From Cytobacillus oceanisediminis 2691 (GTDB lineage: Bacteria; Bacillota; Bacilli; Bacillales; Cytobacillaceae), in contig NZ_CP015506.1 of NCBI RefSeq assembly GCF_000294775.2, forward strand, positions 905,501 to 969,500: 64,000 bases of DNA, written 5' to 3'. The notes beneath the pieces were generated by a model. The model had not been told where the DNA came from. It did not search any database and saw only the letters and a list, made by a program, of their open reading frames with translations. Position 1 is the stretch's first letter; each line of letters starts with the position of its first letter. A program made the position numbers and the translations under genes. Positions 5,253-8,195 of this stretch are shown piece after piece.

Positions 5253-5925
5253 GGATTAAGGACGAAAAGTGGGGAGAGGAGAGAAGATGGTAGTTAATCA
5301 TCCGGATTAACGACGAAAACGTGGAGAGAGTAGAGAAAATGGTAGCTAATCAACCGGATCAACGACGAAAACGTGGAGAGAGTAGAGAAAATGGTAGCTA
5401 ATCAACCGGATTAACGACGAAAACGTGGAGAGAGGTAGAAAAATGGTAGCTAATCAACCGGATTAACGACGAAAAGTGGGGAGAGGAGAGAAGATGGTAG
5501 TTAATCATCCGGATTAACGACGAAAACGTGAAGAGAGGTAGAAAAATGGTAGCTAATCAACCGGATTAACGACGAAAACGTGGAGAGAGTAGGAGAAATG
5601 GTAGCTAATAATCCGGATTAACGACGAAAACGTGGAGAGAGTAGAGAAAATGGTAGTTAATCATCCGGATTAAGGACGAAAAGTGGGGAGAGGAGAGAAG
5701 ATGGTAGTTAATCATCCGGATTAACGACGAAAACGTGGAGAGAGTAGAGAAAATGGTAGCTAATCAACCGGATCAACGACGAAAACGTGGAGAGAGGTAG
5801 AAAAATGGTAGCTAATCAACCGGATTAACGACGAAAACGTGGAGAGAGGTAGAAAAATGGTAGCTAATCAACCGGATTAACGACGAAAACGTGGAGAGCA
5901 GCGAGAAAATGCTAGTTAATCATCC
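5253..5925. repeat. Thirteen-copy 51/52-bp intergenic tandem array
   Basis: This array dominates the 1066-bp gap between swrC (5003) and 6070. Units begin GGATTAACGACGAAAACG and end in GGTAGCTAATCAACC. They start at 5253, 5304, 5356, 5408, 5460, 5511, 5563, 5615, 5667, 5718, 5770, 5822 and 5874. Units 1, 5 and 9 share a distinct 51-bp variant (GTGGGGAGAGGAGAGAAG core), so the array has a four-unit higher order of about 207 bp and grew by block duplication. There are no variable spacers and the period is not a multiple of three. The left flank (5004-5252) must hold the swrC promoter, which I could not place. The right flank holds the promoter at 6002-6029. Confidence 0.95.
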
Positions 5926-6001
5926 AAAATAACGACGAAAAAGCTTCAGTTATTCCTCCAGCAAACAAAAAACTTCAGCCATTCCCTATAACCCTTCCAA
6001 A

Positions 6002-6029
6002 ATGACAATCCCAATCAGTATGTTATACT
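6002..6029 (+). promoter_or_regulatory. Candidate sigma-A promoter of the B12/STAS operon
   Basis: ATGACA (-35) and TATACT (-10) are separated by 16 bp. The -10 box ends 40 bp before the ATG of the first gene. GGAGGAGAG at about 6058 is the ribosome-binding site. Confidence 0.6.
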
Positions 6030-6069: not shown

Positions 6070-6375
6070 ATGTATACAGTCTTTTCAACATTTGACGTAC
6101 CCGACGAAAAGTCGGAGGAAGTCATTAGCATATATAAAAATCGCTCGCGGTCGGTCGATCAGGCGGAGGGGTTTATCGATTTTCTGCTGCTGCAGAATGA
6201 TAAGCGCCCTGGCGAACTGACGGTGCAGCTCATCTTTGATACAAAGGAAAATTATTTAAATTGGGTTCGCAGCGAGGATTTTAAGAGAATCCATGATTTA
6301 GAGAAAAAGTATCCGGATCAGGAACTGGCAGCAGTGGTTCCAAAAGTTTCGCAATTCAAGGTGGTGGCTAAGTGA
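6070..6375 (+). CDS. Antibiotic-biosynthesis-monooxygenase (ABM) fold protein, HmoA/IsdG-like
   Basis: A 101-residue single-domain ferredoxin-like ABM protein. MYTVFSTFDV at the start, SVDQAEGFIDFLLLQ in the middle and an alternating beta/alpha pattern fit this family, which includes heme-degrading HmoA/HmoB and IsdG. The usual catalytic Asn-Trp-His set of IsdG cannot be assigned with certainty, so heme oxygenase activity is only a possibility. It is the first gene of a four-gene operon: the next start (GTG at 6372) overlaps its TGA. Its placement with a B12-binding sensor is unusual and may mean a role in tetrapyrrole or redox chemistry linked to that sensor. Confidence 0.65.
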   Translation: MYTVFSTFDVPDEKSEEVISIYKNRSRSVDQAEGFIDFLLLQNDKRPGELTVQLIFDTKENYLNWVRSEDFKRIHDLEKKYPDQELAAVVPKVSQFKVVAK

Positions 6376-6737
6376 GCTTTGAAAAGATCGTAAACCATGT
6401 AACCGAAAAGATCTATGAACGCGAGCCTTTCCTGCTGGAGCGGTTTGGCGAACAAGGAAAAGAGAAGTGCCGCGAAGATAACCATCATCATATGAAGCAT
6501 CTCGAGACAGCGTATGAGCTGAACCAATCTGCTTTTTTCACTGATTATGCCGTATGGCTTGATGGCATTTTAAAGAAGCATGGGATGAATACCCGGCATC
6601 TGATCGACAATTTCGAAATCATTCAGGCTGTGCTGGCTGAAGATAACGATTCTCCTGAAAAGGCAGAGAGATTCCATCTTTATCTGGCGGAAGCCATTGC
6701 TGTTTTGAAAGGTGAACCTGTTAAGGGAGGAGTGTAA
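6372..6737 (+). CDS. Helical protein of unknown function in the B12/STAS operon
   Basis: A 121-residue, predicted all-alpha soluble protein starting at GTG 6372, translationally coupled to the upstream gene by a GTGA overlap. A His cluster (REDNHHHMKHLETA, near residues 35-48) and a LFTDY-WL-like core (FFTDYAVWLDGILKKHGM) stand out. From memory, similar helical segments occur at the N-terminus of B12-binding sensor proteins in other bacteria, so this may be a split-off domain of such a sensor; I cannot verify that here. The next gene starts 1 bp after its TAA. No enzyme motif is visible. The His cluster could bind metal or heme, which is a guess. Confidence 0.6.
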   Translation: MSFEKIVNHVTEKIYEREPFLLERFGEQGKEKCREDNHHHMKHLETAYELNQSAFFTDYAVWLDGILKKHGMNTRHLIDNFEIIQAVLAEDNDSPEKAERFHLYLAEAIAVLKGEPVKGGV

Positions 6738-6738
6738 G

Positions 6739-7383
6739 ATGAACCACGCTGAAACACTCGCTTCCTTATTGCTTCAAGGTGATTCTGCGAAAGTTTGGGA
6801 GAACATTCAAAAGCAACCGCAGCTATCGCGCCTTGAAGTTTATCAAAATCTGATTACACCTGCGATGCAGCACATCGGCCACCTATGGGAGACGAATCAA
6901 ATCACTGTGGCAGATGAACATCTGGCAACAGCAACATGTGATTTTGTCCTCTCAAAGCTCGCATACCGGCAGGAAAAAAGACAATCAAACCAAAAAGCCA
7001 TGTTTCTCTGCCTGGATGGGGAACAGCATTATATTGGCCTGAAAATGGTCAACAGCCTTTTTGAAGAGCACGGCTGGGAGACAAAGTACTTTGGCCCGAG
7101 CCTTCCTTTGGAATATGCACTGAAAACGGCAAAGGACTGGAAGCCGAGTGTAATCGGTCTATCGGTCAGCATCGTCTATCACCTGCCGAAGCTGAAGGAA
7201 TATGCCGAAGCCTTTGCCAAGCTGACGCATAAGCCGGCTGTTCTTCTTGGCGGGCGCTTAGCCGGGAAGTATGACCTGCTTCCTTATTGCTCCGATCATA
7301 CGGTCATTCTAAAGGATTTGCCGGAAACAAAGGAATGGCTGCAAAACAATGAAGCGGGAGGACAGCAAAATGCAATATTTTGA
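6739..7383 (+). CDS. Stand-alone cobalamin-binding sensor protein with the W-x9-EH photoreceptor-type motif
   Basis: A 214-residue protein with a helical B12-binding cap (about 1-80) and a Rossmann-type B12-binding domain (about 85-210). The lower-ligand motif E95-x-H97-x-x-G100 lies in LDGEQHYIGLKMV, followed by GLSVSIVYHLP and the LLGGRL loop. In the cap, W50 is followed after nine residues by E60-H61, the W-x9-EH signature of the adenosylcobalamin photoreceptors CarH/LitR. Unlike CarH there is no MerR DNA-binding domain, so any output must run through a partner, as in the stand-alone AerR type. ATG 6739 follows GGGAGG. The downstream STAS gene overlaps by 14 bp, which makes that protein the likely partner. 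Confidence 0.85.
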   Translation: MNHAETLASLLLQGDSAKVWENIQKQPQLSRLEVYQNLITPAMQHIGHLWETNQITVADEHLATATCDFVLSKLAYRQEKRQSNQKAMFLCLDGEQHYIGLKMVNSLFEEHGWETKYFGPSLPLEYALKTAKDWKPSVIGLSVSIVYHLPKLKEYAEAFAKLTHKPAVLLGGRLAGKYDLLPYCSDHTVILKDLPETKEWLQNNEAGGQQNAIF

Positions 7384-8155
7384 TCAGCCGCTTCCGCTTG
7401 CGTTTTTAAAAGCTGACAGGAACGGAAAAATAGTAAGCTACTCTGGCATAGCACGGGAAAGCTTTGACCTGAGCGAGGGGCATTTAAAAGGAATCATCGA
7501 TGAGGAAAGCATAGAAAAGCTGATTCAGTACAGCTGGGAGCCTGGGCTGGATCCTGTGAAGCTGGAACTGAATATGAAGACCAGGGAAACACCGCTATCT
7601 TTATTTGAGGTCCATATTCAATGGGACAGCGAGGGTTATGCCAATATGCTATTCTTGCCAAAAGACAGCTCTAATGAAAACTTGATGGATAAGCTGATGC
7701 AGCTGCAGCAGCGCCTGTCCTCAACTGACTTTGAACTTCTGGAGAAAAAAGAAGAGCTGGAGCAGGTGCTGATCCGCTTAAATCAGCTGTCCGGGCCGTT
7801 TATTCCGCTGTCGGAAACGCTCTGCATGATTCCTTTATTTGGGGATATTACAGCAGAAAAAATAAACGTTATTTCCGAAAGCTGTCTCAAAGCCGTTTTT
7901 GCCGGCGAATATGAAGAAATTCTCTTTGATCTGACGGCGGTTGGGGAAATTGAAGGAAAAGGCATTGAGAAATTCACCCAGCTGCTTAAAACGCTCAACT
8001 TCATGACAGGCAGCATCATCAAATTGATTGGCATTAAGCCAAACCTGGCAAAAGTGCTGAATACCTATAAGCTGGATGAATGGGTGCAGATCGATCAATC
8101 CCTGAAGCAAGTCTTAAATGTTTATTTTAATCGGAATGAGTTAGGGGCCACTTAG
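7370..8155 (+). CDS. PAS-like/STAS signalling protein, divergent RsbR-type
   Basis: A 261-residue protein with a PAS-like N-terminal domain (about 5-95, FLKADRNGKIVSYSGIA), a coiled-coil linker (about 105-140) and a C-terminal STAS domain (about 143-255) ending in a KPNLAKVLNTYKL-type helix. It aligns with RsbR-family stressosome proteins, but where RsbR has the phosphorylated threonine in V-V-D-T this protein has E-I-E-G, and the first site reads PLFGDIT. Control by RsbT-type phosphorylation is therefore unlikely at that site. ATG at 7370 follows GGGAGGACAGC and lies inside the end of the B12-binding gene, so the two are translationally coupled. I infer that B12 or light input is passed to this STAS protein. 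Confidence 0.8.
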   Translation: MQYFDQPLPLAFLKADRNGKIVSYSGIARESFDLSEGHLKGIIDEESIEKLIQYSWEPGLDPVKLELNMKTRETPLSLFEVHIQWDSEGYANMLFLPKDSSNENLMDKLMQLQQRLSSTDFELLEKKEELEQVLIRLNQLSGPFIPLSETLCMIPLFGDITAEKINVISESCLKAVFAGEYEEILFDLTAVGEIEGKGIEKFTQLLKTLNFMTGSIIKLIGIKPNLAKVLNTYKLDEWVQIDQSLKQVLNVYFNRNELGAT

Positions 8156-8195
8156 GAGGTCCTTTTTTTGTCAACACTTCTGAATGCGAAATAGT

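Follow-up and report, generated by a model that had tools for sequence, protein, structure and literature searches.

The photoglobin study of Schneider (2022) reportedly dealt with signal transduction by globins that are coupled to a B12-binding domain. The closest described systems are the photocobilins SasPcob (8J2W/8J2X) and AbDPcob (8J2Y), in which a CarH-type B12 domain and a bilin-binding globin are fused (PMC10979010; this and the other papers given by PMC number are drawn on in part), and in which B12 is the part whose light conversion switches the protein (PMC10979010, PMC11796333). Photocobilin domains supplied in trans act on a partner enzyme (PMC10979010, PMC11796333), and stand-alone photocobilins can act by protein contact, with STAS partners predicted in Saccharothrix (PMC10979010). 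In Myxococcales, a BBAG-2 globin is clustered with a B12-binding protein and a heme oxygenase or, alternatively, a pre-2 reductase (PMC10151467). Here, we analysed a stretch of 64,000 nucleotides (nt) of Cytobacillus oceanisediminis 2691 (NZ_CP015506.1, positions 905,501 to 969,500 of the forward strand; hereafter the window), in which an operon of four genes probably encodes a split photocobilin that uses B12 and bilin, has its own pigment supply and would signal via a PAS-STAS protein to the stressosome and sigma-B. The basis is computational and consists of gene order, predicted folds, chromophore residues, fusions, co-occurrence, interchangeable outputs and the sigB operon, from which the light response, the identity of the bilin, the protein contacts and the effect on sigma-B are predicted.

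As in the photocobilins, a CarH-type B12 domain is combined with a bilin-binding globin. The photocobilins, however, are fused and lack the bilin-linking Cys, whereas here the two are separate open reading frames (ORFs), the globin has a Cys33, and ABM and PAS-STAS proteins share the operon. Since globin and B12 domain reside in separate chains, we do not class the system as a photocobilin, although we expect it to work like one. It likewise resembles the BBAG-2 clusters, where a stand-alone globin lies beside a stand-alone B12 protein and a heme-opening enzyme is found in the cluster or genome. It differs from them in an IsdG-like ABM protein instead of a canonical heme oxygenase (found in 2 of 50 globin-bearing genomes) or bilin reductase (0 of 50), in the PAS-STAS output and in the C-x-E-D of its globin, as BBAG-2, compared here by its description, is without C-x-R-D. 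The module had been called possibly undescribed in an earlier reading made from the sequence only (the sequence-only reading); this may hold for the Bacillales four-gene combination, of which the listings of our searches in open-licence literature showed no description, but not for its relatives, as fused photocobilins and split Myxococcales clusters have been described (PMC10979010, PMC10151467).

All four ORFs were confirmed on the + strand. The ABM-fold, IsdG-like protein (101 residues, 6070..6375) is followed by the stand-alone, photoglobin-like globin of the bilin-binding type (121 residues, GTG start, 6372..6737), which overlaps the ABM stop by 4 nt, by the stand-alone CarH/photocobilin-type B12-binding protein (214 residues, 6739..7383), which begins 1 nt after the globin stop, and by the PAS - signalling helix - STAS protein (261 residues, 7370..8155), which overlaps the B12 gene by 14 nt and for which the ATG at 7370 was preferred over 7349, with the ribosome-binding site placed by eye. 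The genes had been described as tightly overlapping, which is accurate for two junctions, while the third is a 1-nt gap. Pfam matches were obtained for ABM (5.5e-13), B12-binding (3e-13), B12-binding_2 (2e-12) and STAS (8.4e-8), and none for the 121-residue protein.

The latter is nevertheless a bilin-binding-type globin and, judging from its residues and predicted fold, is predicted to bind a bilin. It has the five-helix bilin-binding globin domain of the photocobilins, and the 50 VIA rows among the matches listed for it are photocobilin and phycobiliprotein-type chains. In Foldseek, most phycobiliprotein rows have a template modelling (TM) score of about 0.7, compared to 0.58 for haemoglobin. 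We rejected a chance helical bundle or a heme globin, haemoglobins appearing only at Foldseek ranks 10 and 31; when this protein alone was searched by sequence against solved structures, no useful match was obtained. In its C33-R-E-D36 motif (6468..6479, +), Cys is at the phycobiliprotein position of bilin attachment and Asp at the bilin-holding position: both align with the KCARD of phycocyanin, D36 also aligns with Asp270 of SasPcob, and compared to the phycobiliprotein C-x-R-D, Cys and Asp are kept but Arg is Glu. D36 is kept in 98/98 split globin homologues (including one fragment assigned to the window itself, P0089) and in 7/7 globin-B12 fusions, and C33 is present in 96/98 and 0/7, respectively. 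W62 (codon 6555..6557, +), found in 97 of the 98 homologues (the remaining one is gapped there) and in all seven fusions, is the equivalent of SasPcob Trp296, which is situated beside ring D of the bilin and forms a hydrogen bond to the corrin (PMC10979010). The counterparts of both photocobilin residues, Asp270 and Trp296, are hence kept.

The B12 protein contains the adenosyl-pocket motif W50-x9-E60-H61 (6886..6921, +) and the lower Co ligand motif E95-x-H97-x-x-G100 (7021..7038, +), exactly as the sequence-only reading had given them with numbering from the ATG at 6739, and thereby the combination of W-(9/10)x-EH and E/DxH that marks the photocobilin B12 domain. None of the residues W50, E60, H61, E95, H97 and G100 varies among 33 aligned sequences, one of which is that of the window, and W-x9-EH occurs in 60/63 B12-profile ORFs of the neighbourhoods, the other three being one broken frame (L045) and two long unrelated ORFs (L046, L047). 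The motifs are shared with CarH/LitR, whose MerR DNA-binding domain is absent here; the earlier statement that the protein is without a DNA-binding domain agrees with the ORF and Pfam analysis, in which none was seen. The best PDB matches are the photocobilins 8j2w/8j2x (1.7e-14 and 1.8e-14), while NCBIfam CarH matches at 6.8e-14, under the family cut-off. It is extremely improbable that the protein is instead the corrinoid methyl carrier of a methyltransferase (MtbC1), as its database name 'methanogenic corrinoid protein MtbC1' and weak NCBIfam corrinoid protein matches would have it, and this candidate was rejected on account of the CarH and photocobilin top matches and the W-x9-EH motif; nor do the four genes include a methyltransferase. 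An adenosyltransferase was found in 50/50 genomes, which carries little weight, the control Bacillus subtilis being positive too. Elsewhere in the genome of the window, a 307-residue protein (L160, 1240-2163) consists, as judged by eye, of a MerR-like N-terminal part and a B12 domain that carries a W-x9-EH motif of its own, so that the cell has two B12 photoreceptor candidates.

From 88 relatives of the globin we retained 80 loci, and in 47 of these the four genes recur together, collinear and on one strand (in L045 with a broken B12 frame), which answers positively the check for a conserved neighbourhood that the sequence-only reading had proposed. The count was initially 49 loci with ABM, B12 and STAS nearby; L028 and L029 were dropped, as the STAS profile had matched a PAS-histidine kinase in the former and, in the latter, an RsbR-like gene that lacks the PAS part. 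From our point of view, the order is not due to chance, since it recurs in 47/80 loci while the flanking BenE and AcrB genes, which were rejected as parts of the operon, accompany only 6 and 9 of the 47. By a 2.5-kilobase rule, further loci have ABM-globin alone (21), ABM-globin-B12 (4) or a B12 and PAS protein on the strand opposite the globin (4), and in two ('ABM+B12(opp)', L046 and L047) the B12 matches are spurious, lying in the long ORFs without W-x9-EH mentioned above. ABM and globin form the tightest pair, being together in 76/80 loci, and their 4-nt overlap is found in 43 of the 47 four-gene loci, the exceptions having ORFs with longer starts or a disrupted frame. Another 20 B12 stretches, mostly with the B12 gene apart from the globin and some of them second copies (L156 is the L068 locus itself), were added, and a PAS protein adjoins B12 in 18 of them by profile and in one more by eye. 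The unit is thus built of two halves, [ABM-globin] and [B12-PAS-output]. The tightness of the first half, together with the 21 loci without a nearby B12 gene, could also mean that ABM-globin is a separate pair for heme degradation or bilin storage which just happens to lie in one operon with a B12-PAS-STAS sensor; we regard this as very unlikely, given that none of the 50 globin-bearing genomes (own genome and 49 of the 80 loci) is without a B12 protein and that at L103 an ABM gene immediately precedes the gene of a globin-B12 fusion. As side observations, in L151-L155 (Rossellomorea and related), the B12-PAS pair adjoins a gene resembling carbonic anhydrase by eye, and in one relative (G395; L101 and L106) only globin pieces and an opposite-strand STAS-profile match were seen, with no B12 protein found at the threshold, a pattern for which joint decay of the unit is possible.

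The two domains are joined outright in seven proteins of 358-363 residues from two families (f4, same class; f21, same phylum), with the globin N-terminal and the B12 domain C-terminal, and the profile of these fusions matches photocobilin across both domains at 2.8e-34. In 299 Bacilli genomes, the globin was found in 44 (E <= 0.001) and the B12 protein in 46 (E <= 1e-25), with both in 41, the globin only in 3 (weak or fragmentary matches) and B12 only in 5 (Fisher 3e-41, kinship uncorrected). As 17 of the 41 have both domains in one frame, their co-occurrence is trivial; minus these, both occur in 24 genomes and neither in 250, while 3 have the globin without B12 and 5 have B12 without the globin (Fisher 9e-27, kinship likewise uncorrected). 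The ABM subfamily (E <= 1e-25) occurs in 24/299, always with the globin on the same strand and with match edges <=84 base pairs (bp) apart; at 1e-25 it was missing from 20 of the 44 genomes with the globin, 15 of which carry fusions. In some genomes, scoring was limited to a part of the first-look candidates, which makes absences in these searches uncertain. The B12 protein could in principle be a light or B12 sensor on its own that signals to STAS, with the ABM and helical genes accessory or unrelated, as CarH is photoactive with adenosylcobalamin (AdoCbl) alone and as some of the genomes have B12-PAS pairs away from ABM-globin. However, B12 without globin is rare (5/46 genomes, or 5/29 minus the fusion genomes) and the two domains are fused elsewhere, so that we give this explanation little credence. 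The proposed tie between a CarH-type B12 domain and a STAS partner is thus borne out by gene linkage and motifs, but the operon resembles a split photocobilin rather than a B12-only module like AerR, in that the 121-residue protein is a bilin-binding-type globin and the IsdG-like ABM protein is tied to it.

With regard to the output, the fourth protein has the RsbR-type plan of sensor domain, helix and C-terminal STAS that is common to YtvA and RsbR, while its chromophore proteins are separate. YtvA, a light sensor of the RsbR family whose role is solely positive, is associated with the stressosome (PMC3944199). The NCBIfam YtvA family matches residues 132-243 of the 268-residue frame at 3.6e-14, under the cut-off. 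The AlphaFold2 model (predicted local distance difference test 78.3, predicted TM score 0.47) shows PAS topology, a helix at 100-140 and then STAS, and its Foldseek matches are first YtvA 2mwg (4.7e-12), then Listeria RsbR 7b0u and RsbS 6jhk; since the TM score to 2mwg is only 0.38, the domains match and their arrangement does not. No LOV chromophore motif was recognised in the PAS part. The genome of the window holds a complete rsbR-S-T-U-V-W-sigB-rsbX run (L107; assigned by eye from gene order, length and sequence), and RsbS (E <= 1e-49) is present in 35/35 genomes with PAS-STAS versus 7/13 with PAS only (Fisher 1.4e-4, kinship uncorrected), the six without it being Paenibacillus or Alicyclobacillus. 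This test covered 50 genomes, 45 of which match at 1e-6; L029 and L068, with no PAS protein assigned, are omitted from the table of 35+13, L067/L153 was judged PAS-only by eye, and L062 (1.6e-9) was scored as without RsbS. As the B12 gene is tied to a PAS-STAS partner, and this in genomes with RsbS (35/35), it is reasonable to assume that the signal reaches the stressosome through protein contact. The PAS part accompanies B12, but the domain after PAS can also be a histidine kinase (L028, by eye) or a short tail, in the latter case sometimes next to a large protein that by eye is a CheB/CheR-type hybrid. Such large proteins, of 1,150-1,211 residues and another possible output, stand beside globin or B12-PAS genes of Paenibacillus, Alicyclobacillus and their relatives (L053, L069, L143 and L146). 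The window encodes one more STAS protein of the RsbR type (L088, 36697-37542), which, unlike the PAS-STAS protein, retains both phospho-Thr positions.

For the pigment supply, the ABM protein places S6, W65 and H75 at the IsdG triad positions Asn7/Trp67/His77, S6 being located through the 1iuj alignment (match 2.1e-5). In the ABM alignment, S6 and W65 are invariant and H75 is found in 28/29 rows. The ABM family and the triad Trp and His are hence common to this protein and the IsdG-type heme oxygenases, from which it differs in its invariant Ser for Asn7 and its link to a globin gene; NCBIfam HmuQ matches at 1.3e-11, but with 44.7 bits versus a cut-off of 130. A genome search found no canonical heme oxygenase in the window's own genome. 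This genome has five more ABM-family matches, four of them aligned, so that other heme-degrading enzymes are possible. Reduced phycobilins were rejected as chromophore because no bilin reductase was found in the 50 genomes. The product of the IsdG family is staphylobilin, not biliverdin (PMC9393634), and the bilin used here may be other than biliverdin as well. One could even speculate, as a rather unlikely case, that the ABM protein with Ser for Asn7 makes an unusual staphylobilin-like cleavage product, that the globin binds this product through a bond to Cys33, and that the resulting chromophore, unlike any seen so far, would tune a split B12 photoreceptor and drive the stressosome. To our knowledge, no earlier IsdG-family enzyme serves a light sensor.

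Two observations weigh against a split photocobilin acting on the stressosome. Firstly, Asn7, which is critical in IsdG (PMC6018153), is replaced by Ser6, and the IsdG triad is thus incomplete. Secondly, the PAS-STAS protein has Ala and Gly at the RsbR phospho-Thr positions T171 and T205, for which reason we do not class it as RsbR; the equivalent positions vary within the PAS-STAS family, and four RsbR paralogues of the genome keep both Thr. It has been described, however, that the stressosome can signal without the T171/T205 phosphorylations (PMC3944199).

If the operon works as a split photocobilin, the ABM enzyme would open heme to a bilin, and the small globin would take up this bilin, with D36 and W62 as the holding residues and C33 as a possible site of bonding. 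The globin would then dock onto the AdoCbl-loaded B12 protein in a photocobilin-like manner, and with such docking we propose that B12 responds to green light directly and to red light by way of the bilin. The four-helix domain would shift when the adenosyl group is lost, the PAS part of the partner would sense this shift, and STAS would pass the signal to the RsbRST stressosome and sigma-B. The main rival assumes the same complex, with tetrapyrrole, oxygen or redox state (heme/iron load, AdoCbl supply) as the signal instead of light: ABM would report heme and oxygen via the bilin, the B12 protein would report AdoCbl, and PAS-STAS would inform the stressosome. An ABM enzyme of such type would presumably need heme and oxygen, its subfamily stands only beside the globin in the 299 Bacilli, two biliverdin-bound BBAG-2 globins are described as photoinert (PMC10151467), and the activity of AbDPcob is reported to be lowered in the dark by AdoCbl binding alone. 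Yet in photocobilin the light-converted B12 is what switches the protein, the adenosyl-pocket motif of the photoactive CarH/photocobilin group is invariant in the 33 sequences and the globin retains the corrin-bilin contact residue, and we therefore consider this rival unlikely.

Ahead of the operon, a sigma-A-type promoter-like site (ATGACA-16-TATACT, extended TG, 10/12 consensus positions) lies at 6002..6029 (+), and a terminator-like hairpin with a T run follows the last gene at 8143..8164 (+). Both are weak alone and near chance, as the scans gave 7 promoter sites versus 5.2 expected and 4 hairpins versus 3.4 expected. Between the AcrB-type gene and the operon, a 52-bp repeat (GGATTAACGACGAAAACGTGG...) is arrayed in about 13 copies at 5253-5941 of the window; the array stops about 130 bp upstream of the first operon gene.

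Overall, if our assignment is true, many non-photosynthetic relatives of Bacillus would have a two-pigment light sensor of B12 and bilin that is wired to the general stress response. As this sensor would consist of separate proteins of 101-261 residues, its assembly would be open to study. The operon further suggests a chromophore route without a canonical heme oxygenase, none having been found in 48/50 genomes, and three gene families that are at present unannotated or misnamed (hypothetical protein, ABM and "MtbC1") would be explained as one unit.
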